A stretch of DNA of 39,240 bases from a virus. The translations under genes and the position numbers were made by a program. Positions 1,009 to 31,885 of this stretch are shown here, in pieces. Below the pieces are notes generated by a model. That model worked only from the letters and a program-made list of their open reading frames with translations. It was not told the origin of the DNA and did no database searches. The stretch spans positions 1 through 39,240 of IMG/VR virus record IMGVR_UViG_3300046804_003209. The stretch is one strand, 5' to 3'. Each line of letters opens with the position of its first letter. Position 1 is the first letter of the stretch.

Positions 1009-1404
1009 ATGGCTATGAAATTTACAAATCCAAATTCAACAGTTATACAACAAGCTAGTCCTCCTAAGTCTGAAGAACCAAAAGACTCTGGTTTTGAACC
1101 TGCTACCGTTGTAACACCTACTCCTCCTGCTAGACAAACTCCAATTTCACAACCTGTACAAAGAGAAATTGGTCGTAGGAAAGAAATGGTTAACCATCCA
1201 GAACACTATGGTGGTAAAGATAATCCCTATGAGGCTATTAAGGTTATTAGAGCATGGAACCTCAGCTTCTCGTTAGGTAATGTTATTAAATATGTTTCTC
1301 GTGCAGGTAAGAAAGATCCATTGAAACGTTTAGAGGATCTTCATAAAGCTATGTGGTATTTGCAAGAAGAGATAGCAAGCGAATACGAAAAGAGTATTAA
1401 GTAA
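1009..1404 (+). CDS. DUF3310 (SaV-like) phage protein with Pro-rich N-terminus
   Basis: The C-terminal 75 residues match the phage family DUF3310. They contain VNHPEHYGG, then YEAIKVIRAW, NVIKYVSRAGKK and LEDLHKAMWYL. The family is common in phages next to nucleotide-metabolism genes and resembles all-alpha NTP pyrophosphatase-like helices, but its biochemical role is not settled. The first 55 residues are a low-complexity Pro/Thr/Gln-rich tail absent from the minimal family and probably disordered. It starts 16 bases after the nucleosidase stop and ends just before a tRNA gene. Confidence 0.8.
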   Translation: MAMKFTNPNSTVIQQASPPKSEEPKDSGFEPATVVTPTPPARQTPISQPVQREIGRRKEMVNHPEHYGGKDNPYEAIKVIRAWNLSFSLGNVIKYVSRAGKKDPLKRLEDLHKAMWYLQEEIASEYEKSIK

Positions 1405-1407
1405 TTA

Positions 1408-1497
1408 GGAGAGTTGGCTGAGTGGCCTAAAGCACTCGTTTGCTAAATGAGCGAACCTTAACCGGTTCCGTGGGTTCGAATCCCACACTCTCCGCCA
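1408..1497 (+). tRNA. tRNA-Ser(GCT)
   Basis: A complete class II tRNA with encoded CCA. The acceptor stem pairs 1408-1414 with 1487-1493, followed by discriminator G and CCA. The anticodon arm is CTCGT, loop TTGCTAA, ATGAG, giving anticodon GCT for AGC/AGT codons. A long variable arm (GAACC, loop TTAA then CC, GGTTC) is typical of serine tRNAs. The T arm is TGGG, TTCGAATC, CCAC. It lies in the 110-base gap between the DUF3310 gene and a glycosyltransferase and probably supports AT-rich phage codon use. Confidence 0.95.
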
Positions 1498-1514
1498 TTA
1501 ATTATGAGGTAGTT

Positions 1515-2228
1515 ATGATTACAGTTGTTGTTCCTACGATGTGGAAATACAAACCATTCATTAGGTTTGTTGAAGATATGACAGAGGTATCTTCTATTGG
1601 TGAAATTATTATTATTGATAATGATTCAGCTGCTATGCCTAACGATCCAATATTTTCTCATCCTAAAGTTAATTGCATTTCATATGGAAAGAACATATAT
1701 GTTAATCCAGCTTGGAATATAGGAACAAGACTTGCTAAGCATGAAAACATTTGTTTGCTTAATGATGATGTAATTGTAGATCTTAAATTATTCAGCAGAA
1801 TGGATAAATTCTTACAACCTGGTATTGGTGTTTGTGGAATATGTCCTGGGCTTCAACAAGAGTTTGGTCATATTCCAATTACATCTGGTGAGATTGATCT
1901 TGTTCATAGTCCAATGCCATACAATCCCAGAATACATTTTGGCATGGGTACATTGATGTTTTATCCCAAGTCAGAATATATTCCAATTATTGATGGTTTA
2001 GATTTATACTGGGGTGACAACTACATATACGATACGTTATACTACAAACTTAATAGAAACTACCAAATTGTAAATACTTTCTACCATACACCATATGCTG
2101 TGACGACCTCAACGATTGCCAACTCTGGTGAGATTTTGTCACGAGAACATCAAGTGTACAACAGAGAAATGCCAAATATTTTAGAACAAATTCGTGTGGA
2201 AAATGTTTATCGCACTGGACTTAATTAA
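1515..2228 (+). CDS. Glycosyltransferase family 2-like protein
   Basis: A 237-residue GT-A fold glycosyltransferase. It opens with the MITVVVPT beta strand, continues with EIIIIDNDS, the nucleotide-sugar pocket, and CLLNDDV, which corresponds to the metal-binding DxD-like site of family 2. A later WGDNYIYDTLYY segment fits the acceptor/catalytic region. The open frame extends back to 1440, but that part lies inside tRNA-Ser. The start at 1515 has a good ribosome site (GAGGT, 1506-1510) and begins exactly at the expected first strand. Acceptor and donor sugar cannot be read from the sequence. Confidence 0.78.
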   Translation: MITVVVPTMWKYKPFIRFVEDMTEVSSIGEIIIIDNDSAAMPNDPIFSHPKVNCISYGKNIYVNPAWNIGTRLAKHENICLLNDDVIVDLKLFSRMDKFLQPGIGVCGICPGLQQEFGHIPITSGEIDLVHSPMPYNPRIHFGMGTLMFYPKSEYIPIIDGLDLYWGDNYIYDTLYYKLNRNYQIVNTFYHTPYAVTTSTIANSGEILSREHQVYNREMPNILEQIRVENVYRTGLN

Positions 2229-15424: not shown

Positions 15425-16081
15425 ATGAGTGCAAACATAGTAGCTGTAACAAGACCAACCAGTGGTCTTGGAATTGACGACTTCATTGCATATGTTGCAA
15501 GAGTATCAAATCCTTCTAATCAAAACAATACTGAGACATCTGGTCGTTTAATTAAATACCTTGTTAATAATAAACATTGGTCTCCTTTTGAACTTGTTCA
15601 TGTTGTTATGGAAATTGAAACAACTCGTGACATTGCTAGACAGATTCTTCGTCATCGTAGTTTCACATTTCAGGAGTTTAGTCAACGTTATGCAGATCCA
15701 ACCAAAGATCTCGGGTTCACCACTCGTGAAGCGCGTCTCCAAGATACAAAGAATAGACAAAACTCAATTGAATTCAATGATGAAGAACTCCAAGGAACAT
15801 GGGAGCTTCTCCAACAAAACTCAATCAACTACTCTCGAGAGATCTATAAATGGGCAATTGAAAAAGGAATTGCCAAGGAACAAGCTCGAGCAGTCCTTCC
15901 AGAAGGTCTTACTGTTTCTCGCATGTATATGTCTGGCTCTCTTCGTTCTTGGATTCATTATTGCCAACTAAGATGTGCCAATGGTACACAGAAAGAACAT
16001 CGTGAGATTGCTATAGATTGTTGGTATAAGATAATGGAATTGTTTCCTAGCCTAAAAGAACTAAATCTAATAGATAAATGA
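15425..16081 (+). CDS. thyX: Flavin-dependent thymidylate synthase
   Basis: A 218-residue ThyX, which makes dTMP from dUMP with FAD, NADPH and methylene-tetrahydrofolate. The family motif RHRx7S is present as R76-H-R to Ser86 (RHRSFTFQEFSQR), preceded by HWSPFELVHVVMEIET and followed by YADP. The C-terminal EQARAVLPEGL and SLRSWIHYCQLR segments carry the dUMP-binding Arg residues. The length is normal. It supports phage DNA synthesis together with NrdJ further downstream. It is preceded without gap by two small phage genes. Confidence 0.96.
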   Translation: MSANIVAVTRPTSGLGIDDFIAYVARVSNPSNQNNTETSGRLIKYLVNNKHWSPFELVHVVMEIETTRDIARQILRHRSFTFQEFSQRYADPTKDLGFTTREARLQDTKNRQNSIEFNDEELQGTWELLQQNSINYSREIYKWAIEKGIAKEQARAVLPEGLTVSRMYMSGSLRSWIHYCQLRCANGTQKEHREIAIDCWYKIMELFPSLKELNLIDK

Positions 16082-16083
16082 TG

Positions 16084-16112
16084 TTGACTTTGTCAGCAAA
16101 CTATACTAATAT
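16084..16112 (+). promoter_or_regulatory. Sigma70-like promoter
   Basis: TTGACT (16084-16089) and TAATAT (16107-16112) with a 17-base spacer, 19 bases before the metallopeptidase start. A TATAAT at 16110 would give a 20-base spacer. Confidence 0.55.
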
Positions 16113-16130
16113 AATCTCAAAGGGAATACA

Positions 16131-16616
16131 ATGATTAAGTTCAAAAATAGTAAGCTGGTATTGAAAAAAGATCTTGACAAGTTGAAAAGTCTTGCCAATT
16201 TTGTTTTAGATAAATTTTTTACACAAAATAGAAAGAAAAAGCTTCATATCGATATTGTTTTTGTAAAAGACTTATTTAAAAACAACAATACTTATGCAAA
16301 TTGCGTTTGGGAAGATGATTATAAAAGACCAAACGAGTTTACTATTCAAATGGACCCAGATCAAAGGATTCAACTTTTACTAAATAGCTTAGCTCATGAA
16401 TTGGTTCATGTCAAACAATGGGCTAAGGGAGAGTATTACGAGCTTGTGAGTAAGCCAAAAGTCTACAAGTTTAATGGTAAACTAGTAGATACTCAGAAGG
16501 TCGATTACTGGGATACGCCCTGGGAAATCGAAGCCCATGGTCGTGCAATCGGGTTAGTCGTTCAGTGGGTTAGAAAAGCTAAACTCACTGACAAAAATTT
16601 AGTTGTAGAAGGCTAA
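16131..16616 (+). CDS. SprT-like/HExxH metal-dependent peptidase-like protein
   Basis: A 161-residue protein with a zinc-binding HELVH motif (His89-His93) in SLAHELVHVKQW and a later WEIEAHGRAIGL segment, whose Glu/His fits the third ligand. The arrangement matches SprT-like or phage HExxH families. The substrate is unknown. There is no signal peptide, so it acts in the cytoplasm. Its own promoter lies upstream and AAGGG precedes the start at 16131. Confidence 0.72.
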   Translation: MIKFKNSKLVLKKDLDKLKSLANFVLDKFFTQNRKKKLHIDIVFVKDLFKNNNTYANCVWEDDYKRPNEFTIQMDPDQRIQLLLNSLAHELVHVKQWAKGEYYELVSKPKVYKFNGKLVDTQKVDYWDTPWEIEAHGRAIGLVVQWVRKAKLTDKNLVVEG

Positions 16617-16643
16617 TCCCTAACTTTAACCAAGGAGTAATTA

Positions 16644-17282
16644 ATGAAGAAGCTACTTATTACTGCAGCCGCTATTGCTTTTGCAACTGGCGCATATGCT
16701 ACAGACCTTCCTAATAAGAAGGCCGCTCCTGCAGCAACTGCAGCAGCACCTGCAGCATCTGCAGACAATACGATTTCAGCTGGATATGGTTTCGACTATA
16801 ATACAGGTGAATATAGCAAGTCAACTGCTACTAACTATTCTGTAGCATACTCACGTAATCTCGGCGGTGGCTTTTCAGCAGGCGTTGCAGCTGGAACATC
16901 ACAGGCAGCTGATGCCGGAGCATTGAAGCAGACTATTGAAGCACAAGCTGGCTATAAGCTTCCAGTTTTTGCTGGTTTCACTGCTAAGGCTGGTGCAGGC
17001 ATTGGTCAAAGATTTACCAGTGGTGCCAATTATGGCTACTATGCACTTCGTGCAGGTATGGACTATAGCCTTACTGACAATATTGTCATTAATGCAGCCA
17101 ACTATCGTTACCGTAACTCATTTGATGCTGCATACAGCTATGAGTCACAACAAGTTGGTACAGGCTTGACTTACAAGTTTGCTAAGGATCAATCAGTAAA
17201 CGTTTCAGCAGCTCGTTCTTATGACAAGAGCTGGACAGCTACTGGTGATTCAGTAACAGTAGGTTATGCACTTAATTTCTAA
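16644..17282 (+). CDS. Outer-membrane beta-barrel protein
   Basis: A 212-residue exported protein. Signal peptide of 19 residues (ATGAYA cut), then an Ala/Pro-rich linker (about 22-40) and a barrel domain of alternating strands (ISAGYGFDY, NYSVAYSRNL, FSAGVAAGTS, YYALRAGMDY, VSAARSYDK, VTVGYALNF). The last residue is Phe, the usual signal for barrel insertion. About ten strands are visible. The DLPNKKAAP start resembles bacterial, especially alphaproteobacterial, small porin-like proteins. In a phage it could alter the host surface, for example to block superinfection or change permeability; no function is shown. AAGGAG precedes the start and a terminator follows. Confidence 0.85.
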   Translation: MKKLLITAAAIAFATGAYATDLPNKKAAPAATAAAPAASADNTISAGYGFDYNTGEYSKSTATNYSVAYSRNLGGGFSAGVAAGTSQAADAGALKQTIEAQAGYKLPVFAGFTAKAGAGIGQRFTSGANYGYYALRAGMDYSLTDNIVINAANYRYRNSFDAAYSYESQQVGTGLTYKFAKDQSVNVSAARSYDKSWTATGDSVTVGYALNF

Positions 17283-17288
17283 TATATT

Positions 17289-17316
17289 AAAGGGGGCAGA
17301 GATGCCCCCTTTTTTT
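17289..17316 (+). terminator. Intrinsic terminator after the barrel gene
   Basis: A stem AAAGGGGGCA paired with TGCCCCCTTT around a GAGA (GNRA) loop, followed by T residues. It ends the barrel transcript seven bases after its stop. Confidence 0.93.
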
Positions 17317-17344
17317 ATATCTGATGTCTAAAAAAGTAACTCGA

Positions 17345-17376
17345 TTTTAATAAAACTTTAATAATTGTTTTATACA
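17345..17376 (+). promoter_or_regulatory. Pho-box-like repeats and -10 before pstS
   Basis: Three seven-base units, TTTTAAT (17345), CTTTAAT (17356) and GTTTTAT (17367), are spaced exactly 11 bases apart with four-base spacers, the architecture of the PhoB box. They match CTGTCAT at 4, 5 and 4 of 7 positions. TATACA (17371-17376) can serve as -10. The AT richness makes chance possible, but the position before pstS supports phosphate control. Confidence 0.45.
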
Positions 17377-17382
17377 TATGCG

Positions 17383-17413
17383 AACTCAAGCTATACGCTT
17401 GAGTTGTTTTTTT
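17383..17413 (+). terminator. Terminator-like hairpin in the pstS leader
   Basis: A perfect nine-base stem AACTCAAGC/GCTTGAGTT with loop TATAC, one G, then seven T residues (17407-17413). It lies downstream of the putative -10 and directly before the pstS ribosome site (AAGGAG, 17418-17423). It may attenuate transcription, block readthrough from upstream, or stabilise the 5' end of the mRNA. Confidence 0.75.
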
Positions 17414-17428
17414 AACCAAGGAGTTAAC

Positions 17429-18352
17429 ATGTTAAAGAACATTCTTGCCGTAATTGGATCTATGTTTATTGCTACTTCAGCCTTTGCAGGTGAAGTTAAT
17501 GGTGCAGGCGCTACATTCCCACAACCAATTTATGTAAAGTGGGCAGATAGTTTTAAGAAAGAAACTAACAACTCTGTAAATTATCAGGGAGTTGGTTCTG
17601 GTGCAGGTATTAAGCAGATTGATGCAAAGACAGTTATTTTCGGTGCTACTGATATTCCAGTAAAGCCAGAGGACCTTGAAAAGAAAGGTCAAGTACAGTT
17701 TCCTATGATCGTTGGTGGTATCGTTCCTATCTTTAATCTTAAGGATGTAGAACATCTTACACTTACCACTGACATCTTAGCAAAGATTTATTCAGGTAAG
17801 ATTACAAAGTGGAACGACAAAGAAATTGCTGAGATCAATCCAGGTGTAAAGCTTCCTGATATCGGTATTATTAAGATTCGCCGTTCAGATGGTTCAGGTA
17901 CAACATGGAACTTCACAAAGTATCTTTCAGAAGCAAATGCTGATTGGAAGAAAAACTATGGTTTTGGTTCTACAGTAGAATGGGCTGGAAACACAATAGG
18001 TGGTAAGGGTAATGATGGCGTTGCTAACAACGTAAGCCAAACTAATGGTTCAATCGGTTATGTCGAATATGCGTTTGCAAAACAAAATGATTTGCAAGTT
18101 GCAGATATGATTGGTACAGATGGTAAGAAAGTATCACCAGGTCTTAAGGCATTTCAGACAACTTGGCCAATGGTTGCAACTTCATATATCGTAATGCATA
18201 AGCAGAACGATGATTCAGCTGCAGTTGCTATTGCAAAGAAATTTTTTGAATACGGACTTTCACACGACAAAGATGCCGAGGCATTGGACTATATTCCTCT
18301 TACAGCTGCACAGAAAGCTGATGTGAAGAAAACCCTTCAAAACATTCAGTAA
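17429..18352 (+). CDS. pstS: Periplasmic phosphate-binding protein PstS
   Basis: A 307-residue ABC-transporter phosphate-binding protein. A 20-residue signal peptide (TSAFA cut) precedes GAGATFPQPIYVKWAD, VGSGAGIKQI, FGATDIP, RRSDGSGTTWNFT and GGKGNDGVA, the phosphate-contacting loops of PstS. It delivers phosphate to the host PstCAB permease. The length is slightly below E. coli PstS because of a shorter C-terminal lobe. The open frame extends to 17378, but that part overlaps the leader hairpin; ATG 17429 starts the signal peptide with a strong ribosome site. Phage pstS is known from aquatic phages of phosphate-poor water. Confidence 0.95.
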   Translation: MLKNILAVIGSMFIATSAFAGEVNGAGATFPQPIYVKWADSFKKETNNSVNYQGVGSGAGIKQIDAKTVIFGATDIPVKPEDLEKKGQVQFPMIVGGIVPIFNLKDVEHLTLTTDILAKIYSGKITKWNDKEIAEINPGVKLPDIGIIKIRRSDGSGTTWNFTKYLSEANADWKKNYGFGSTVEWAGNTIGGKGNDGVANNVSQTNGSIGYVEYAFAKQNDLQVADMIGTDGKKVSPGLKAFQTTWPMVATSYIVMHKQNDDSAAVAIAKKFFEYGLSHDKDAEALDYIPLTAAQKADVKKTLQNIQ

Positions 18353-18634: not shown

Positions 18635-18655
18635 GAATTTCATATAAATTGAATG

Positions 18656-18683
18656 AAAGAGGGTAGAGATACCCTCTTTTTTT
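18656..18683 (+). terminator. Intrinsic terminator
   Basis: Stem AAAGAGGGTA/TACCCTCTTT with GAGA loop, then T residues. It separates the small gene from the late virion module. Confidence 0.92.
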
Positions 18684-18688
18684 GTTTC

Positions 18689-18696
18689 GATAAATA
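18689..18696 (+). promoter_or_regulatory. T4-like late promoter octamer (GATAAATA)
   Basis: GATAAATA, seven of eight to the T4 late -10, directly after the terminator and 27 bases before the start at 18723. It is the natural entry promoter of the late module. Confidence 0.55.
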
Positions 18697-18722: not shown

Positions 18723-19748
18723 ATGAAGACGTTTTCACATTTTATAGAAGAAAGTTATGCGTTAGAACTAACTGAAGGTAGTAAACCTATCCAATCTCGT
18801 GGAATGTCTGCAGAAAGACATACTAAGCAGTACATTACTCCATATCTTCCTGGAAATGAAAAACACGCAGAAGGCACTCATACGATGGCTTCTGACCATG
18901 AAGGATTGAGTTCAGGTGACAAAGTAACAATTCATAGTCATGAAGTCGTTGATGGTGTTCATCATGCAGTCGTGTCAAAAGCTGGATCTAACAAAAAAAT
19001 TAAGATTCCTACAAACAAATTAATCAAGCCAACAACTAGAAAAAATAAAGGTTTAGAGCAAGAAGCTGGTCTAGTTAAACATCTTAATGGTCACGGATTG
19101 ATGCAGGGTGGTGGTGCTGGTTCTACAGCAGGAAATGATTTTCATCTATTAGATAAGCGTGGTGGTAAAACTAGAAAAATTTCAGGTTCTGCTGGACATA
19201 ACACCGAGAATGAATTAGGTATTCATGGTGAACATAAATCAGACATTAAGTCTACTGCATTTGGTCAAATTACTCTTTCTAGACATCCTAAAACAGGCAA
19301 ATGGCATATCGATGATAAGGCAAGAGCTAAGCGTCCTGAATATGCAAAGCACGTTGAAAGTGCTACAATAACAGTTAACGGTAAAAAGAAAAACCTTATT
19401 GACCATCTCAATGAAACAGAACCTCATGGTACTTCTAATAAGTCAGGTTTCCATTCTGATGAAACACATAACTTAGAACCTGCTCATTCGTATATGAGAG
19501 ATCATCATGTTGACGTTGTTCACATTGACTCGCATGGTACTTTCAGAGCTGGTCATAGTGCACAAAACGATCGTCATAAGACTGGACTTCCTTCAATGGA
19601 AGGAACTGGTCGTTTTAGAGTTAGACAAAAGACTGATAATGTCAATAAAAGAACTGTCCAATTTGAAGTAAAAAAATTAAATAAGTCTAATGTTAACATT
19701 GGTACTGATGAAGGTGCTAATGAAATGAAAAAGAGACTTGGACACTAA
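18723..19748 (+). CDS. Capsid-targeted protein with PD-(D/E)XK-like nuclease motifs
   Basis: A 341-residue protein. It starts MKTFSHFIEES, like the T4 internal-protein capsid-targeting sequence (MKTYQEFIAEA), with a gp21-type cleavage pattern I-E-E/S at residues 8-11. The centre reads GLEQEAGLV (Glu114), AGNDFHLLD (Asp139), then GEHKSD (Glu170-x-Lys172) and FGQITL (Gln182), the order Glu, Asp, ExK, Q of PD-(D/E)XK nucleases. The rest is His- and Lys-rich. I infer a nuclease packaged in the head; the motif call is by eye and could fail. It begins the late module and stops two bases before the next gene. Confidence 0.55.
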   Translation: MKTFSHFIEESYALELTEGSKPIQSRGMSAERHTKQYITPYLPGNEKHAEGTHTMASDHEGLSSGDKVTIHSHEVVDGVHHAVVSKAGSNKKIKIPTNKLIKPTTRKNKGLEQEAGLVKHLNGHGLMQGGGAGSTAGNDFHLLDKRGGKTRKISGSAGHNTENELGIHGEHKSDIKSTAFGQITLSRHPKTGKWHIDDKARAKRPEYAKHVESATITVNGKKKNLIDHLNETEPHGTSNKSGFHSDETHNLEPAHSYMRDHHVDVVHIDSHGTFRAGHSAQNDRHKTGLPSMEGTGRFRVRQKTDNVNKRTVQFEVKKLNKSNVNIGTDEGANEMKKRLGH

Positions 19749-19749
19749 T

Positions 19750-20880
19750 ATGAAAACATTTCTCAATTATATTATAGAAGCACGTGGTCCAGCATCATCT
19801 GTAGATGAAGAAGAACTTACTCATCTCACTCATGCAAAAGAATTACATTATTCAGATCCGTCACATGCTAAGACTGGTTTGGATCTCATTAAACAATTTC
19901 ACAATCATAGACAAGGTAAGCCTAGCACAATTAAAGCATCACTAAAGACTGATGGTGGTGCTTCAGTTCATATCATTCATGATGAACATGGTGTAGGTGT
20001 TACTGATAAGCATAGATGGGCAAGAGGTATTGTTGCAAGAACACCTCAGGAAGTAGATCAGCATTTTGGTCATGCTCCTGAATATGCAGCATCAATGAAG
20101 CATCTTCTTGCACACGGCCATGAATTTGTTAACAAAGGTCATCATGTTCAAGGTGACTTGTTACATACACCAAAAGACAAGGTTGAATCTAAGGCTGGTA
20201 AGATCTCTATTACTCCAAATAGAATCACTTATAAAGCAAAGACGAAAGCACCACTAGGTGTTGCTATTCATACAGAGATTCATGGAAGAACAGCAAAGGC
20301 ACTATCAAAGGGTGCTTTGAGACATAGCGATCATGTATTTGTTCCAGAAGCAGAATATAAATCACATCCTGAATCTTATTCTAAAACAGATAGAGATGCA
20401 ACAGAACATCACTTAGCTGCTGCTGAGAAACTACTTAAGGGTCACTCAACGAAGCATTTGACACCAGAACATGTTGCTCATTTTACAACATATATGAATA
20501 GCACAACACGTAACAATACTCTACCTACAGTAGAAGGCTATAAGAAGCATCTACAAGCAGTTGGTGAAAAAAAGGCATCTAAATTGAAGACTGCATCTGC
20601 TCAACAAAGAGTTCGTGATCAACATGCAGCTATGATTTCTCATATTGATAAACATGCAGAACACTTTCAAAAGTCAATCGACATTCACCATCATCTAGAA
20701 CAAGCAACTGAGCATGTACTTAAGGGTGTAGAACATCCTGATATGGAAACATCGATCGATGGCAAGAAGTCACAAGGTGAAGGTGTTGTTCTTCAAAGAA
20801 ACGGAAGACCAGTAGCTAAATTGGTTCCAAGAAAAGTATCAACAGCAATATTGAATAATCCTAGATTTGGAAGAGGATAA
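19750..20880 (+). CDS. Capsid-targeted protein with ATP-dependent ligase-like nucleotidyltransferase motifs
   Basis: A 376-residue protein of a family I have seen in marine T4-like phages (I believe DUF6267). It starts MKTFLNYIIEARG, close to the T4 capsid-targeting sequence, with I-I-E/A cleavage possible at residue 10. Ligase-superfamily motifs follow in order: motif I K66-T-D-G69 after a hydrophobic strand, QGDLLH (134-139) at motif III position, VAIHTEIHG (171-179) at IIIa, EGVVLQ (344-349) at motif IV, and AKLVPR (356-361) at motif V. The adenylated Lys would be Lys66. A long His/Lys-rich helical insertion (about 215-325) separates IIIa from IV. DNA or RNA ligase activity is inferred. 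Confidence 0.6.
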   Translation: MKTFLNYIIEARGPASSVDEEELTHLTHAKELHYSDPSHAKTGLDLIKQFHNHRQGKPSTIKASLKTDGGASVHIIHDEHGVGVTDKHRWARGIVARTPQEVDQHFGHAPEYAASMKHLLAHGHEFVNKGHHVQGDLLHTPKDKVESKAGKISITPNRITYKAKTKAPLGVAIHTEIHGRTAKALSKGALRHSDHVFVPEAEYKSHPESYSKTDRDATEHHLAAAEKLLKGHSTKHLTPEHVAHFTTYMNSTTRNNTLPTVEGYKKHLQAVGEKKASKLKTASAQQRVRDQHAAMISHIDKHAEHFQKSIDIHHHLEQATEHVLKGVEHPDMETSIDGKKSQGEGVVLQRNGRPVAKLVPRKVSTAILNNPRFGRG

Positions 20881-20888
20881 ATTTTGTA

Positions 20889-22196
20889 ATGGCACAGTAT
20901 CGTGTAGACTCTAATAAGTTTCTTGCCGACAGTACAACAATGTTTGAAGTTGTACAGCTTGCTGATAGATACGGCAATCTTATTGGAGGTGCTAATCCAT
21001 CTGGTATGGCAGTAGATGCTTTCGGTCGTATGAGAGTATCCAATCCTCAAACACTATTTGAGTCGTTTCATCGCTACCATGATAATGGTAAATGGTCTAC
21101 GGCTAATTCCGCTACTGCAACAGTTGTATTAGACTCCAATGCATCTTTAATGCAACTTACTGTTGATACGACATCAGGTGCATATGCATATAGAGAAACA
21201 AACAGAGTGTTTGCATATCAACCTGGTAAGTCATTACAAATATTTGAATCCTTTGTGTTTAATCCTGCACAAGCAAACTTAGTACAAAGAATTGGATATT
21301 TTGGTTCAGATAATGGTTTATATCTAGAACAAGCTAACACAACTATTAATTTAGTAAAAAGAAGTTCTTCTAACGGTACATTAGTAGAGACAAGAGTACC
21401 ACAATCTCAATGGAATATGGATACTCTTTTAGGTAATGTAAATTCATCACCATCTCATATAACTCTAGATCTTACTAAAACTCAAATTTTATTTACTGAT
21501 ATTGAATGGTTAGGTGTCGGCACAGTAAGACAAGGATTTGTGATTGACGGTCAACTAATACATTGTCATTCTTGGAATCATGCTAATAATTTAGATAATA
21601 CATATATGACTACAGCATGTCTTCCTGTAAGACAAGAAATATTTAATATAGGAACGACTGCTGCAAATAGCACATTAAAGTGCATATGCTCTACTGTAAT
21701 ATCTGAAGGTGGTTATGCATCGAGAAGTAGTAGACAAAGAACACTAGGACAGGATCCAGCAAATACAATTACAATGGCTACTGCTGGTACTTACTACCCT
21801 CTAGTTTCTATAAGATTAAATCCAGTTCATTTAGACGGTATAGCAGTACCTAGAAATATATCAGTTTTACCTACTGCACAAGGTAATTATCGTTTTAAGC
21901 TAATACAGGGTGCAACTATTAACGGTGCAGTATGGACTGATTTTGCCTCTGATTCTGTTGTTCAATATAATGCTAATACATCTGCAACTTTAACAGGTGG
22001 TACTACAATTACTTCAGGTTACGTACCAGTCACTGCACAAGCAACAGGTGTTATAAATTTAGATCCGGATTTGTTTAGATTTCAGTTAGAAAGAAATAGT
22101 TTTACTAGCACTCCTACTACTTTTACATTGGCTATTACATCAGATGGAGCAACTGATACAGCAGTTGGATCAATGGACTGGGAAGAAATAACTTAA
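20889..22196 (+). CDS. Virion structural protein (conserved in aquatic T4-like phages)
   Basis: A 435-residue beta-rich protein without signal peptide. The N-terminal segment (GGANPSGMAVDAFGRMRVSNP, LFESFHRYHDNGKWS) is a pattern seen in structural proteins of aquatic T4-like phages. It is Ser/Thr/Asn-rich with no catalytic motif. The late module context supports a virion role, possibly head or tail surface. Exact location is unknown. Confidence 0.65.
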   Translation: MAQYRVDSNKFLADSTTMFEVVQLADRYGNLIGGANPSGMAVDAFGRMRVSNPQTLFESFHRYHDNGKWSTANSATATVVLDSNASLMQLTVDTTSGAYAYRETNRVFAYQPGKSLQIFESFVFNPAQANLVQRIGYFGSDNGLYLEQANTTINLVKRSSSNGTLVETRVPQSQWNMDTLLGNVNSSPSHITLDLTKTQILFTDIEWLGVGTVRQGFVIDGQLIHCHSWNHANNLDNTYMTTACLPVRQEIFNIGTTAANSTLKCICSTVISEGGYASRSSRQRTLGQDPANTITMATAGTYYPLVSIRLNPVHLDGIAVPRNISVLPTAQGNYRFKLIQGATINGAVWTDFASDSVVQYNANTSATLTGGTTITSGYVPVTAQATGVINLDPDLFRFQLERNSFTSTPTTFTLAITSDGATDTAVGSMDWEEIT

Positions 22197-22202
22197 TAAA
22201 TA
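22195..22202 (+). promoter_or_regulatory. T4-like late promoter octamer (AATAAATA)
   Basis: AATAAATA within TAATAAATATA, 24 bases before the 22226 start. A second AT octamer (TATAAAATA at 22201) overlaps it. Confidence 0.4.
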
Positions 22203-22225
22203 TAAAATAAACACTAGGAAAACAG

Positions 22226-24514
22226 ATGCCAGAATACAACGATCCACAATCAAATAAGGTAACTTCTGATACCAAGCCTTTGAAAAAAGGTAAGACAGAA
22301 GTTGTTAAGGACATTATTTCCAAAGGAAAAACAATGACTGGCCAAAAGCCAGATGAAATCATTTTGAATCCAGTCCTTGAAGCTAAGGAAAAAAGAGCTG
22401 TATTTGCATTTGGTCGTTTTAATCCTCCTACAACTGGACATGAAAAATTAATCCATAAAGTTGAGGATACTGCAAAGTCACAGGGTGCTGAAGCTCATAT
22501 CATTGCTTCGCATACTGAAGGTAATGCAAAGAATCCACTTCCTAAGGAAAAGAAAGTAGAGTATCTTAAAAAGATTGCATCAGAAGGTACTAATGTTACA
22601 GGTTCTTCTTCTGAACATCCTACTCTTCTTCATCATCTTGCCAACCTTCATAAGAATGGTATTCACCATATTACTATGGTTGCAGGGGACGATAGAGTAA
22701 AAGAATATCATGATTTGATTCACAAATATAACGGTGTTGAAGGTCGTCACGGTACATTCAACTTCAAGTCAATAAATGTTGTTTCAGCTGGTGCTAGAGA
22801 TCCTGATGCAGAAGGTGCAGAAGGTATGTCTGGAACTAAGATGCGTGAACATGCTCGTTCTGGAAACACAAAAGAATTTAAAAAAGGCTTACCAAAAGCA
22901 TTGCATCCTCATGCAAAAGAAATTATGAATCAAATTAAATCAGTTAAAGAAGAGGTAGACGATTTATTTGATAATTTCATTATAGAAACTGCTATCGATA
23001 AGATTGGTCAAATATACGATCAGGTTATTCAAGAAGCATATGATGAAGACAAAGAAAATGCTAAGATTAAGAGCGTTAGTCATTCTAACACTCATGACAG
23101 AGATGATGGAAAATCAGAAAGAACTCTTCTTTATAAAAACGATACTCCTGGTGAACCAAAATCATCCAAAGTAAAAGAAGATATCAATAATACATTTGAA
23201 GCCTGGGTAGATGATGAAAACCCTGAGCCAAAGAATAGAGAAGTTGTTAATCGTCACGGTCAAGATCGTAAAAAAATTGTATTAGTACCACGTGGTGATG
23301 CTGATAGAAAAGATTGTGATAGACCATACCGTCAACAAGAAGTACAAAAGAAAATTGTAGACGAAGGTAAAAAACTTACACCATGGGAAAAAATGACTAG
23401 AGCTATGCCTAGACTCAAGGATAGTGAAGAAAGAGCACAAGCTGCAAAAGCTGGTCTTCAACAAGCTGGTAAAGATTACCAAGCTATTCTCGATAGAGAA
23501 GCAGAAGCAAAAAAAAAGACTAATGAATCTGTAAATTCTATAGGTGGTGTTAGAGGTATGGGTCACGTATCAGGAAGTCCTGATGGTGACGGCAGTGGTT
23601 ATGTTGGTCAAAACATAGCTGATGCTGATACTCGTGACAATATTATAAAAAATCACATTAACACTCATTTTGCATTACATATGAGTGATCAGAAGGTTAC
23701 TAAAGAAGAAAAACTAAACGAAGATCTACGTAAGTGGTTTAAAGATAAGTGGGTCCGCATGGACACCAAAGGTAACATAAAGGGCGATTGTGCAAGAGAG
23801 CCTGGTGAGGGTAAACCAAAATGTCTCCCTCTTGCAAAAGCACGTGCTATGGAAAAGGAAAAAAGAGCAGCTGCTGCACAAAGAAAAAGAAGAGAAGATC
23901 CTGTAGCAGATCGTCCTGGTAAAGGTGGTGCTCCTGTTAATGTAAGAACAGAAGAATTTGAATACATTGAAGAAAAGAATAAACCAACTAATCCTTCACT
24001 ATGGGCTAGAGCTAAATCATTAGCTAGAAGTAAATTTGATGTTTATCCATCAGCTTATGCTAATGGATGGGCTGCAAAATGGTATAAGTCAAAAGGTGGT
24101 GGTTGGAAATCAGTCAACGAAGATAATAATGTAATTAAGCAATTAGAAGATAAACTAAATGTTGCTACTGATAAGTCATATGATGGCATCGATCAAATAA
24201 TGAGACAGGTTGCAAATGAAAATAACATTGATGTACATGACTTACATGATATGTGGGTAAAGGAAACAGGTATTACTCCTGATCAGTATGTTAAGGAAGC
24301 AAGAATATATTTTGGCAAGAATAGGGAAAGATATGCTGCTCAAAGAAAACCACTTTCTCCTGAAGCAGAAAATATACTCAAGAATGCTGAAACTAAAATA
24401 TCACAATCTGCTGTTCCTTCAAAACAAGCTATAAAAGATCGTCAAACTAAAACTCGTTCAGACTACGAAAAAGAAATTCCTTCAGATTACAAACCTAAAC
24501 TTCATAAGGATTAA
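22226..24514 (+). CDS. Mosaic late protein with HIGH-type nucleotidyltransferase domain
   Basis: A 762-residue mosaic. The N-terminal 210 residues form a cytidylyl/NMN-adenylyltransferase-like domain: FAFGRFNPPTTGH (63-72, the HIGH-like motif), VAGDDR, and SGTKMR (202-207) in place of ISSTxxR. A long acidic/basic low-complexity middle follows (about 250-470), then DLRKWFKDKWVRMD and GKPKCLPLAKARAM, seen in many phage proteins, and KFDVYPSAYANGWAAKWYKSKGGGWK, another widespread phage module. The last 120 residues are helical. It lacks the MKTF start. It could adenylate or cytidylate a nucleotide or protein; a virion component is inferred from position. Confidence 0.6.
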   Translation: MPEYNDPQSNKVTSDTKPLKKGKTEVVKDIISKGKTMTGQKPDEIILNPVLEAKEKRAVFAFGRFNPPTTGHEKLIHKVEDTAKSQGAEAHIIASHTEGNAKNPLPKEKKVEYLKKIASEGTNVTGSSSEHPTLLHHLANLHKNGIHHITMVAGDDRVKEYHDLIHKYNGVEGRHGTFNFKSINVVSAGARDPDAEGAEGMSGTKMREHARSGNTKEFKKGLPKALHPHAKEIMNQIKSVKEEVDDLFDNFIIETAIDKIGQIYDQVIQEAYDEDKENAKIKSVSHSNTHDRDDGKSERTLLYKNDTPGEPKSSKVKEDINNTFEAWVDDENPEPKNREVVNRHGQDRKKIVLVPRGDADRKDCDRPYRQQEVQKKIVDEGKKLTPWEKMTRAMPRLKDSEERAQAAKAGLQQAGKDYQAILDREAEAKKKTNESVNSIGGVRGMGHVSGSPDGDGSGYVGQNIADADTRDNIIKNHINTHFALHMSDQKVTKEEKLNEDLRKWFKDKWVRMDTKGNIKGDCAREPGEGKPKCLPLAKARAMEKEKRAAAAQRKRREDPVADRPGKGGAPVNVRTEEFEYIEEKNKPTNPSLWARAKSLARSKFDVYPSAYANGWAAKWYKSKGGGWKSVNEDNNVIKQLEDKLNVATDKSYDGIDQIMRQVANENNIDVHDLHDMWVKETGITPDQYVKEARIYFGKNRERYAAQRKPLSPEAENILKNAETKISQSAVPSKQAIKDRQTKTRSDYEKEIPSDYKPKLHKD

Positions 24515-24516
24515 TA

Positions 24517-24897
24517 ATGAAAACGTTCAAGCAGTACTCAGAAGATAATGGTTGCCTACTTGATGAAGAACTTGAAATTCATGAGTTGATTGAAGAAGAG
24601 TTTCTTGTATCAGGTGATGAGCTTTATGAAGATTGGGGTGAACCTTTAGAAGAAGCAGAAAAAGGTGGTCGTAAGGTTTCTTTGGGAAAACCGTTCCTGA
24701 CACCAGGTGGTCCAAAGAAGAGAGCTGTTTATGTTAAGAATGAAAACGGCAACGTAGTAAAAGTCAACTTTGGTGATCCCAATATGACTATTAAGAAGAA
24801 TATTCCATCACGTAGAAGATCATTCCGTGCTAGACATAATTGTGATAATCCAGGCCCACGTACAAAGGCTAGATACTGGAGCTGTAAAGCATGGTAA
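24517..24897 (+). CDS. Capsid-targeted-type protein with conserved basic Cys domain
   Basis: A 126-residue protein that starts MKTFKQYSEDN. The first 50 residues are strongly acidic, with L-I-E/E-like cleavage sites, and the last 60 are basic (KPFLTPGGPKKRAVYVKN, VKVNFGDPNM, RRRSFRARHNCDNPGPRTK, YWSCKAW). The basic domain recurs in many phages, with two cysteines and a terminal aromatic, and could bind DNA or RNA. The acidic propeptide plus basic mature part resembles T4 internal proteins. It starts two bases after the mosaic gene and overlaps the next. Confidence 0.62.
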   Translation: MKTFKQYSEDNGCLLDEELEIHELIEEEFLVSGDELYEDWGEPLEEAEKGGRKVSLGKPFLTPGGPKKRAVYVKNENGNVVKVNFGDPNMTIKKNIPSRRRSFRARHNCDNPGPRTKARYWSCKAW

Positions 24898-25091
24898 AGA
24901 CATTTAGAGAATTCTTAGATGAACTCTATGTAAGAGATCCATCAGGGAAGATCATTAACATTAGAAAACAAAAGTACCGCGGTGCAGATATGAAGATGCA
25001 CAAAGCATATCCAGGAAAAAGTTCAAGTTCTGGTGGCGGTGGCGGAGGCGGTAGTGGCGGCTCCGGTGGTTCAGGTAACGGAGGAGCATAA
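24891..25091 (+). CDS. Small Gly-rich protein with capsid-targeting-like start
   Basis: A 66-residue protein. The start MVKTFREFLDEL fits the same pattern with one extra Val, followed by a basic centre (NIRKQKYRGADMKMHKAY) and a poly-Gly/Ser tail from residue 43. The tail is low complexity and probably flexible. The stop overlaps the dps-like start (TAATG). It is a candidate minor internal protein. Confidence 0.55.
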   Translation: MVKTFREFLDELYVRDPSGKIINIRKQKYRGADMKMHKAYPGKSSSSGGGGGGGSGGSGGSGNGGA

Positions 25092-25525
25092 TGGAACAAC
25101 TATTAGAAAAACTTAAGGTATTACACGCTACCAACTTTTCATTTTATCTTAAATTACATTTCTTTCATTGGAATGTAACTGGTCCTAATTTCCCACAATA
25201 TCATGAGTTCTTTGAAGAGCTTTATACCGATGTATGGGGTGCAGTTGATGATATTGCAGAACATATCAGAGCAGTAAAGGGATTTGCTCCTGGTTCTTTA
25301 TCACGTTTTATGGATCAAACTATGATAAAAGATCAGCTTGATGTTGTTCCAGCTGAGCAGATGATTTCAATAGCTGCTCAAGATAATGATAAAGTATTAG
25401 ATGCTTTAACTCAAGCATATCTTGCAGCAGAGCAAAATGCAGAACATGGATTAGCTAATTTTATTCAGGATCGCATAGATATCCATAAAAAACATGGTTG
25501 GATGTTAAGATCCATACTATCATAA
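25091..25525 (+). CDS. Dps-family miniferritin
   Basis: A 144-residue Dps/ferritin-like protein. Ferroxidase ligands keep the exact spacing of Listeria Dps (His31, His43, Asp47, Asp58, Glu62): here His26 in FHWNVTG, His38, Glu42 (an Asp-to-Glu change), Asp53 and Glu57 in DDIAEHIR. The length is that of Dps without the Lys-rich N-terminal tail of E. coli Dps. Such 12-mers oxidise iron with peroxide and protect DNA. In a phage it may guard DNA or hold iron; placement in the late module is notable. The start overlaps the previous stop. Confidence 0.9.
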   Translation: MEQLLEKLKVLHATNFSFYLKLHFFHWNVTGPNFPQYHEFFEELYTDVWGAVDDIAEHIRAVKGFAPGSLSRFMDQTMIKDQLDVVPAEQMISIAAQDNDKVLDALTQAYLAAEQNAEHGLANFIQDRIDIHKKHGWMLRSILS

Positions 25526-30131: not shown

Positions 30132-30521
30132 ATGGATAAAGTCGACGAATTTAACTTTTTATTATTTGCTGCTAAACATTATGACAATCCCCAGTGCTAT
30201 GATACTGTAGAATTTTATGATGATTTAAAAAGAATCAAATATATCAAAAGACTTTTAAATAGATATGTTGAGGAAGGCGATTTAAAAGAACGTCTTATTC
30301 TTAACCACATCATAATTCTCAACAATGTGTTTGGTCCTACTCCAACTGTAAAAATGCTATTTTTAAAATGTAAGGGTTTAGAATCCCAACTAAAATCGTT
30401 TCTTATGTTTCTTAATGTTCTTCCTGATAAGGTAGAAAATATTGGTATAGAAAACAGAACTATAAATACTAAAGAAATTTCCCATGATGAAAAAATTTTA
30501 GAAGAACTTAGGAAAATCTAA
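30132..30521 (+). CDS. Conserved T4-like phage protein of unknown function
   Basis: A 129-residue helical protein with KHYDNPQCYDTVEFYDDLKRIKYIKRLL (two parts of one conserved region), GDLKERLILNHIIILNNVFGP and LNVLPDKV. This pattern is common in aquatic T4-like phages beside structural genes; its function is unknown. Start and stop abut the neighbours (TAATG at the end). Confidence 0.7.
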   Translation: MDKVDEFNFLLFAAKHYDNPQCYDTVEFYDDLKRIKYIKRLLNRYVEEGDLKERLILNHIIILNNVFGPTPTVKMLFLKCKGLESQLKSFLMFLNVLPDKVENIGIENRTINTKEISHDEKILEELRKI

Positions 30522-31885
30522 TGGCAGGCGTAGTAGATAGCGTTTTAACATATCAATTTCTAAGAAAACTTACAACTCCTTTTAACAAGATGCCTGCCTA
30601 TAAGTATAATCTTATTGACGATAAAGGCAACTTCCTAAAAGATAGAAATAGATTTACACCCCAAGAAAGACAGATTCTTGGTATATTTGATGTAATGGTG
30701 ATAAACTTAAAGAAGATAATTTCTAAAATTCCTGGTGGTGCAACTAGACTTGGAACTATAGCTGCAGCTATGTTTCTTTTAAAGTCTAAACCTATCAGAG
30801 AAGATATATCATATGAAGAACTTGATGCATTAGTCGAACAGGAATTTTATCAAATATTTGATACTATTAAACATTTGAATGAGGATGGTGTTGCTGCAAT
30901 CAACACAGCAGGTTCTGGTGACATAGCTGGACTTGGTCAACCTCCTGGATCATACAAAGGTGAGCCTGGTGTTTCTGTAGCAGCTCAAAAGAAACATCAG
31001 AAAAAAGCATCTGATAGTTTACAACCTTTCCTTGCTCAGCTTAGAAGAGCAAAAGCAATGACACAATCAGAACAGATTGTTCAAGGATCGCAAAATACAG
31101 TTGGTGTACAAACAAAGAAGGCAAGTAAGTCTTCTACAGAAAACATCACAGTACAAAATAAAGTAGCAGAGAGTTTAACAGAAGAAACTACTCTACAATA
31201 TCACAAACAATTAAATCCTAAAATTTGGGATACAGTTGGTGAACTTAAACAAGATGTAAAAGATAAGTTGATACAGATAGCTGATGCCTGGGTTGCTTTT
31301 GCAAAAATATCTCCAGACTTAATTTATGATGTTGTAATTACAGGTGGTAATGTTAATTACAATTATACACCAAACTCAGATATTGATTTACATGTTGTTA
31401 TGTCTAGATCAGCAATTAATCCTGATAGAGCATTTGTTGATGAATATCTTCAAGATAAAAAAATTCTTTGGACTCTACAACATCCAGACATTTCTATCTA
31501 TGGCTATCCAGTAGAGCTGTATGCTCAAGATACTGATGAAAAACCTCATGCCAATCAAGGCGTTTATTCTTTGATTCAGAATAGATGGATAGCAAGACCT
31601 CAGATGCTAGATCTTAACTTTGAAAACGATTATCATCTACAGAAGAAAGTTCAATTTTACAAAGATATGATTGACAAAATGGTTGACGATAATGCTAGTG
31701 ACGACACTATAGAAATTCTCAAAGATAAGATTAAAAAAATGCGTGGTGACTCAATTGCCAAAGAAGGCGAGTTTGCATTTGGCAATCTTATTTTCAAAGA
31801 ACTTCGTAATGCTGGTTACCTAGACAAACTTAATGACTATAAGAAAACTAAACAAGATAAAATTTTATCATTAGGAAGACCTTGA
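30521..31885 (+). CDS. Phage structural-type protein fused to a pol-beta-like nucleotidyltransferase domain
   Basis: A 454-residue protein. The N-terminal 110 residues (VVDSVLTYQFLRKLTTPF, KIPGGATRLGTIAA) match a conserved phage protein type that ends in a hydrophobic helix near 80-95. A linker rich in Gly, Ala and Lys follows (130-220). The C-terminal part holds GGNVNYNYTPNSDIDLHV (Gly275-Gly276 to Asp287-x-Asp289), the G-[GS]-x(9-13)-D-x-[DE] signature of the polymerase-beta-like superfamily. Substrate is unknown; possibilities include nucleotide or protein modification. It is followed by the spanin pair. Confidence 0.6.
   Translation: MAGVVDSVLTYQFLRKLTTPFNKMPAYKYNLIDDKGNFLKDRNRFTPQERQILGIFDVMVINLKKIISKIPGGATRLGTIAAAMFLLKSKPIREDISYEELDALVEQEFYQIFDTIKHLNEDGVAAINTAGSGDIAGLGQPPGSYKGEPGVSVAAQKKHQKKASDSLQPFLAQLRRAKAMTQSEQIVQGSQNTVGVQTKKASKSSTENITVQNKVAESLTEETTLQYHKQLNPKIWDTVGELKQDVKDKLIQIADAWVAFAKISPDLIYDVVITGGNVNYNYTPNSDIDLHVVMSRSAINPDRAFVDEYLQDKKILWTLQHPDISIYGYPVELYAQDTDEKPHANQGVYSLIQNRWIARPQMLDLNFENDYHLQKKVQFYKDMIDKMVDDNASDDTIEILKDKIKKMRGDSIAKEGEFAFGNLIFKELRNAGYLDKLNDYKKTKQDKILSLGRP

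Follow-up and report, generated by a model that had tools for sequence, protein, structure and literature searches.

The 39,240-nucleotide virus record IMGVR_UViG_3300046804_003209 (the window, meaning this whole 39 kb stretch) is T4-like in character and holds four genes whose products start with MKTF-like peptides; we name them by their first nucleotide as 18723, 19750, 24517 and 24891. These peptides are very probably capsid-targeting sequences of the T4 internal-protein type, and the protein bodies behind them head cargo that is injected into the host. The leader clearly marks 18723 and 19750, and perhaps 24891 and 24517. We infer that the window's own proteins are packaged, cleaved and ejected in this way.

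The leader in four genes of the window

The first-pass annotation of the window had reported four MKTF-like starts, and open reading frames (ORFs) were confirmed at all four positions, beginning MKTFSHFIEESY (18723), MKTFLNYIIEAR (19750), MKTFKQYSEDNG (24517) and, with an extra Val, MVKTFREFLDEL (24891). An in-frame TTG lies 12 nt upstream of the 19750 start. Shuffling the residues behind the initial Met across the 55 genes of the window gives the expression M-V?-KTF-x-x-[FY] a chance expectation of 0.001; this count took in three of the four MKTF genes, one having been omitted by the automatic gene caller. The canonical T4-type leader, M-[KL]-[TS]-F-x-x-[FY]-[IL]-x-E-[AS], is present in 18723 and 19750, and weaker forms are found in 24517 and 24891. 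F4 is paired with F7 or Y7 in 18723 and 19750 and with Y7 in 24517, and likewise in 24891 minus its extra Val.

Simple motif expressions missed leaders shifted one residue longer or shorter, and a position matrix (PWM) built only from 32 distinct leaders of homologues of the 19750 product (family DUF6267) was therefore used. The score is 20.0 for 18723 and 21.2 for 19750, the latter in its own training family and so not independent, while 24891 reaches 13.2 only without its extra Val and 24517 scores 3.6. The proposed T4-type targeting is supported by the full pattern in 18723 and 19750 and more weakly in the other two. The proposed I-x-E/(A,S) cleavage site is found in 18723 (IEE/S) and 19750 (IIE/A), fails at residues 8-11 of 24517 and reads LDE/L (FLDE/L) in 24891. 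A later LEE/A site stands at residues 44-47 of 24517; if cut at PLEE/AE, the protein would yield a strongly basic module of 80 residues resembling a small internal protein. A polyprotein reading, in which cleavage at an xEA site would release this phrog_7595 module in every case, was rejected, the site being present in only about half of the homologues.

How many of the four proteins are cargo is a separate question. That capsid cargo comprises 18723 and 19750 only, with 24517 and 24891 serving another function, such as that of small late head proteins, is a serious contender that we place a little below even chances. The low scores of these two against 20-21 for the others, and the lack of [IL]-x-E-[AS] at residues 8-11 of 24517, speak for such a division; the MKTF-like start is nevertheless kept in close homologues of both, and in a homologue of 24517 from another locus (L214) the phrog_7595 module is immediately preceded by a canonical leader. 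The bodies of 18723 and 19750 are unrelated to each other, as had been supposed (BLASTP E 0.69; hhalign probability 5%).

Conservation and likeness to T4 internal proteins

The leader similarity does not vanish in alignments of homologues. M1, F4 and E10 are invariant in the 12 members of the 18723 family, in which the following linker varies in length and sequence, and Glu10 is among about 30 invariant columns in 22 DUF6267 homologues, down to 24% identity. The first 15-19 residues form a low-confidence helix in the models of both products. For these two genes, all computational tests proposed or implied by the first-pass annotation gave favourable results.

When applied to T4, the DUF6267-only matrix ranked ipIII and ipII (16.7 each) and ipI (8.3) as the top three of 68 genes (50 kb). 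In the T4 record, ipII starts MKTYQEFIAEAR and ipIII starts MKTYQEFIAEAS, and the 19750 start is identical to IPII at 7 of 12 positions. The T4 leader acts in targeting mainly via residues 4 and 7 and in processing via residues 8 and 10 (PMC9026906), and these are the positions conserved in the present leader. Like the leader of IPI, IPII and IPIII (Mullaney and Black 1996, reviewed in PMC9026906), it has about ten residues with aromatics at 4 and 7, an aliphatic residue at 8 and Glu10, and the [IL]-x-E/[AS] protease site and the basic, mutually unrelated bodies are shared as well. In contrast to the T4 internal proteins, the bodies here are of far greater size and resemble enzymes (ligase-like, nuclease-like, cytidylyltransferase, kinase, S-adenosylmethionine (SAM) hydrolase), residue 2 is often Leu, and the hosts are aquatic bacteria, infected by phages that are T4-like but far from T4.

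Spread of the leader over unrelated bodies

At a score of at least 8, 157 of 2589 genes in 136 fetched loci carry the leader, compared with 10 of 3857 shadow ORFs; the 157 include overlapping loci and the DUF6267 training family, which belongs to the biggest cluster, one of 98 members when all sequences are counted. Beyond the DUF6267 cluster, about twenty separate body clusters occur in these loci. In IMG/VR, a degenerate DNA pattern for MKTFxxFIxE[A] matched at least 120 stretches versus one for a control with residues 7 and 8 (F/I) swapped. The 126 ORFs from the listed IMG/VR matches fall into about 50 unrelated body clusters, which upholds the modular set of proteins envisaged at first, and the domains among them include adenylate kinase, P-loop kinase, glucosaminidase, lytic transglycosylase-like, GNAT and cytidylyltransferase. 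Leader-bearing bodies have a median net charge of +8.8 per 100 aa versus -1.0 for other genes. Depending on the phage, the slot directly before DUF6267 is filled by one of at least three leader-bearing bodies that are unrelated to each other, and the cytidylyltransferase is found both with and without the leader, so that the leader behaves as a swappable module. One leader-bearing family of 11 members (L160, positions 1211-1858, minus strand) resembles ADP-ribosyltransferases by eye and has zero Pfam matches.

These counts bear on a different reading, to which we assign hardly any probability: that the MK-[TS]-F start has no targeting role and merely reflects translation initiation or codon use in AT-rich late genes. 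A second-residue Lys and AT-rich starts are, as general knowledge, common in such genomes, but the conservation here is of amino acids, at positions 4, 7, 8, 10 and 11 with E10 invariant; swapping residues 7 and 8 abolishes the signal, shadow ORFs rarely match, and the leader is associated with virion proteins. Such an artefact was rejected on the residue-swap control, the shadow ORFs and the N-terminal shuffles.

Leader-bearing proteins in virions of relatives

Virions of the cyanophage S-CREM2 contain 52 proteins by mass spectrometry (MS), including a SAM hydrolase, an APH-like kinase, a cytidylyltransferase and a Cas9-like nuclease (PMC10665884). When the DUF6267 matrix was run on 219 annotated S-CREM2 N-termini, the five best were all MS-detected virion proteins (p=6.5e-4): gp154 cytidylyltransferase (MKNFSSFLTEAD), gp14 APH kinase (MKRFDAFLTEEE), gp6 SAM hydrolase (MKDFDSFLEEFD), gp13 and gp136. 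The best non-virion protein scores 2.7, compared with 7.0 in this group. The S-CREM2 coding-sequence table was entered by hand, and S-SCSM1 was scored on mechanical ORFs. Virion-detected NMNAT/cytidylyltransferases also bear the leader in S-SCSM1 (MKSFLQFLKEAA), S-SM1 (MKKFSAFLNEAE) and S-SZBM1 (MRFRQFIIEA, one residue shorter).

Two further virion proteins have leader-like peptides elsewhere in the chain. In the Cas9/Csn1-like, virion-detected S-CREM2 gp12 (OR473000, 7704-10313; L320), LRFASFMAEAA lies about 16 residues from the annotated start, which may be wrong. The 69-aa virion protein gp279 of S-SCSM1 (NC_070962, 91626-91835; L325) has RTFKEFLEYIE at its C-terminus.

The virion data also address a second role for the leader, as a scaffold-binding or core-assembly tag on proteins that shape the core and are then cut up and lost rather than injected, like T4 gp67 and gp68. 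Some features fit such a tag: the start MKSLKDFIDES two genes before gp21 in a relative (G003), the long acidic stretch of 24517, and the tiny, Gly-rich product of 24891. However, 18723, 19750 and many other bodies are large, conserved, enzyme-like and basic, and leader-bearing enzymes persist in mature S-CREM2 virions. We therefore regard a core-assembly tag as improbable.

Prohead protease and late expression

The predicted fit to a gp21-type prohead protease agrees with the gene content of the phage group, members of which encode gp21 and gp23 with matching sites. Among contigs of leader-bearing phages, gp21 (PF03420) was detected in 7 of 19 (one, L148, being only 23 kb), and gp23 in the same seven (18 searched); the contigs without them may be fragments. 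The gp23 sites of cultured relatives read AFLSE/A (Melnitz), SFLAE/A (S-SCSM1), LLTE/A (S-CREM2) and ILTE/A (S-SZBM1), and Melnitz has YITE/A in gp21 and TIFE/A in gp22. By the T4 rule, a protease of this type would cut the leader after Glu10.

The T4 late-promoter core ATAAATA occurs 11 times on the plus strand of the window and not on the minus strand, and 8 of the 11 copies lie within 60 nt of a gene start. This strand bias and placement, including a copy before 18723, favour the late expression claimed at first. The tagged genes are probably late, judging from the ATAAATA copies before 18723 and 22226, as is expected of head cargo. CTAAATA was also tried as the late promoter and rejected, since it is not enriched and ATAAATA fits instead.

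Cargo bodies and gene block

The 19750 product looks like a covalent nucleotidyltransferase of ligase-like type, a lead and not a membership, because its motifs K66-x-D68-G69, E344-G345-x-V347 and K357 are invariant in 22 homologues and the best PDB fold matches of its model are DNA and RNA ligases (E 4e-3, prob 0.99, but a TM score of only 0.24). The 18723 product is possibly a PD-(D/E)XK nuclease, again as a lead rather than a membership. This suggestion comes from its SH3-like part, the D...ExK...GQ residues and a weak HhaI endonuclease match (E 0.04, prob 0.54) among mixed Foldseek matches that include SH3/chromo-like folds. PDB sequence searches with both family profiles (DUF6267 and 18723) gave nothing useful, and the 18723 body has no match among cultured phages.

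The block runs in the order 18723 (341 aa, no family), 19750 (DUF6267), 20889 (phrog_1645), 22226 (cytidylyltransferase plus other modules), 24517 (phrog_7595), 24891 (66 aa) and 25091 (Dps-like). Homologues of 22226 in L026, L033 and Melnitz have the leader, and leader-bearing versions are detected in cyanophage virions. Modules of the 762-aa 22226-24514 ORF, for example EEKNKPTNPSLWARAKS, occur in relatives (L053, L034) as separate proteins with their own leader, which suggests that they are fused former cargo genes. The features of the block are collected in Table 1.

Table 1 Features of the tagged gene block (window positions).
Feature	Position	Strand	Evidence
Intrinsic terminator ahead of tagged genes	18655..18685	+	11-bp hairpin then T run; -15.4 kcal/mol, z -3.8; 0 of 200 shuffles as stable
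T4-type late promoter element GATAAATA	18689..18696	+	34 nt before 18723 start, just behind strong terminator
Putative capsid-targeting leader MKTFSHFIEE, predicted cut before Ser11	18723..18752	+	PWM 20.0; M1, F4, E10 invariant in 12 homologues; low confidence in AlphaFold2 (AF2) model
Putative cargo body A: SH3-like part and possible PD-(D/E)XK nuclease, tentative	18753..19748	+	Invariant D139, E170-x-K172, G181-Q182; Foldseek
Putative capsid-targeting leader MKTFLNYIIE, predicted cut before Ala11	19750..19779	+	E10 invariant in 22 DUF6267 homologues; 32 homologue leaders fit motif
Putative cargo body B: DUF6267, covalent-nucleotidyltransferase-like	19780..20880	+	PF19782 E 1.5e-27; invariant K66-x-D-G, E344-G-x-V, K357; AF2 pLDDT 88
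Virion structural protein without leader, between tagged genes	20889..22196	+	phrog_1645 head and packaging, E 1e-118
Late promoter element AATAAATA before cytidylyltransferase gene	22195..22202	+	31 nt before 22226
NMNAT-like cytidylyltransferase and further modules, without MKTF leader	22226..24514	+	phrog_3041 E 6e-58
Weak leader MKTFKQYSED and acidic stretch ending PLEE, possible propeptide	24517..24654	+	PWM 3.6; basic module after xEA/xES site in about half of homologues
Basic module phrog_7595, net charge +16	24655..24897	+	E 3.6e-11; homologue in L214 with leader directly attached, MKTFVSFITEAEYQG
Small Gly-rich protein, possible leader MVKTFREFLDE	24891..25091	+	PWM 13.2 without Val2; homologues MKTFKQHIEEL, MKTFKQFMEDI
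Dps/ferritin-like protein without leader, directly 3' of tagged genes	25091..25525	+	PF00210 E 1e-21; phrog_3636 E 4e-29

The identifiable genes of the window are syntenic with the gp41 helicase–gp61 primase/ribonucleotide reductase stretch of Kyanoviridae (Melnitz, HTVC008M, Syn9, S-SM1); a megablast comparison of the region with cultured phages gave zero matches. Cyanomyoviruses with virion enzymes (S-CREM2, S-SCSM1, S-SZBM1, S-SM1) have a comparable block near gp61 primase/nrdA and virion cytidylyltransferases with the same leader. Unlike in these phages, the cytidylyltransferase of the window is without the MKTF leader, and it is the DUF6267 and 18723 proteins that have it. Elsewhere in the window, ThyX, a porin-like protein and a PstS-like phosphate-binding protein (15425-18352) are auxiliary genes typical of aquatic T4-like phages. 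A 454-aa protein at 30521-31885 has a weak nucleotidyltransferase match (NTP_transf_2); the virion protein gp156 of S-CREM2 lies in the same block as this protein, and a GG...DID motif is present in both.

Discussion

Several observations weigh against capsid targeting and injection. The window, a fragment lacking the head cluster, does not contain the genes for gp21, gp22 or gp23; both gp21 and gp23 were also undetected in four long relatives of the window (110-150 kb), perhaps fragments as well. No HTVC008M protein scores above 8 with the leader matrix, and S-SCSM1 gp030 has a clear leader (score 17.5) yet is not reported as a virion protein. The virion detections are of proteins of relatives, with none for this phage, and co-purification of non-structural proteins was left possible by the authors of the virion MS study (PMC10665884). 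Within the window itself, 24517 fits the pattern over its first seven residues only.

In the mechanism that we propose for capsid targeting, the protein would be made late, and its first ten residues would fold into a short amphipathic helix and dock, through the aromatics at positions 4 and 7, on the core of the assembling head. A gp21-type prohead protease would then cut after Glu10 at [IL]-x-E/[AS], as in gp23, and the freed basic body would stay with the DNA and enter the next host together with it. The leader would be a detachable module joined to many unrelated proteins, and the injected enzymes would most likely act early on nucleic acid or nucleotides, in repair, counter-defence or host takeover. 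For T4 Alt, P1 DarA/Hdf and N4 virion RNA polymerase, it is established that the head carries an enzyme or counter-defence protein and delivers it along with the DNA, although these proteins use other propeptides or routes.

The signal is of an already known, T4 kind. What appears new, as far as open-access papers go, is its presence across aquatic T4-like phages, on large, enzyme-like and exchangeable bodies, where it would offer an explanation for cyanophage virion enzymes. By titles and abstracts, the open-access literature on 'capsid targeting' deals mainly with T4, P1, P22 and SPN3US, and none of it describes the signal from cyanophages or other Kyanoviridae. The available parts of the cyanomyovirus virion papers (S-CREM2, S-SCSM1, S-SZBM1, S-SM1) give no packaging signal and leave co-purification open.

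More broadly, we consider it rather likely that aquatic T4-like phages share one gene-exchangeable N-terminal address, by which enzymes of an open-ended variety are loaded into the head and then injected. Among the proposed cargo are the ligase-like DUF6267, nuclease-like, NMNAT-like, SAM hydrolase, kinase, adenylate kinase and acetyltransferase proteins, and perhaps a Cas9-like nuclease. Cyanophage virion proteomics has repeatedly found enzymes (cytidylyltransferase/NMNAT, SAM hydrolase, kinases) without a known loading signal, and the leader on virion enzymes offers a simple and testable loading route. It also suggests where in the life cycle DUF6267, along with dozens of unnamed families, is likely to belong. 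If the shared address holds true, the sequence of an uncultured phage would suffice to predict its injected effectors by their leader, providing a rule with which to list the proteins delivered to the host at time zero by abundant aquatic phages.

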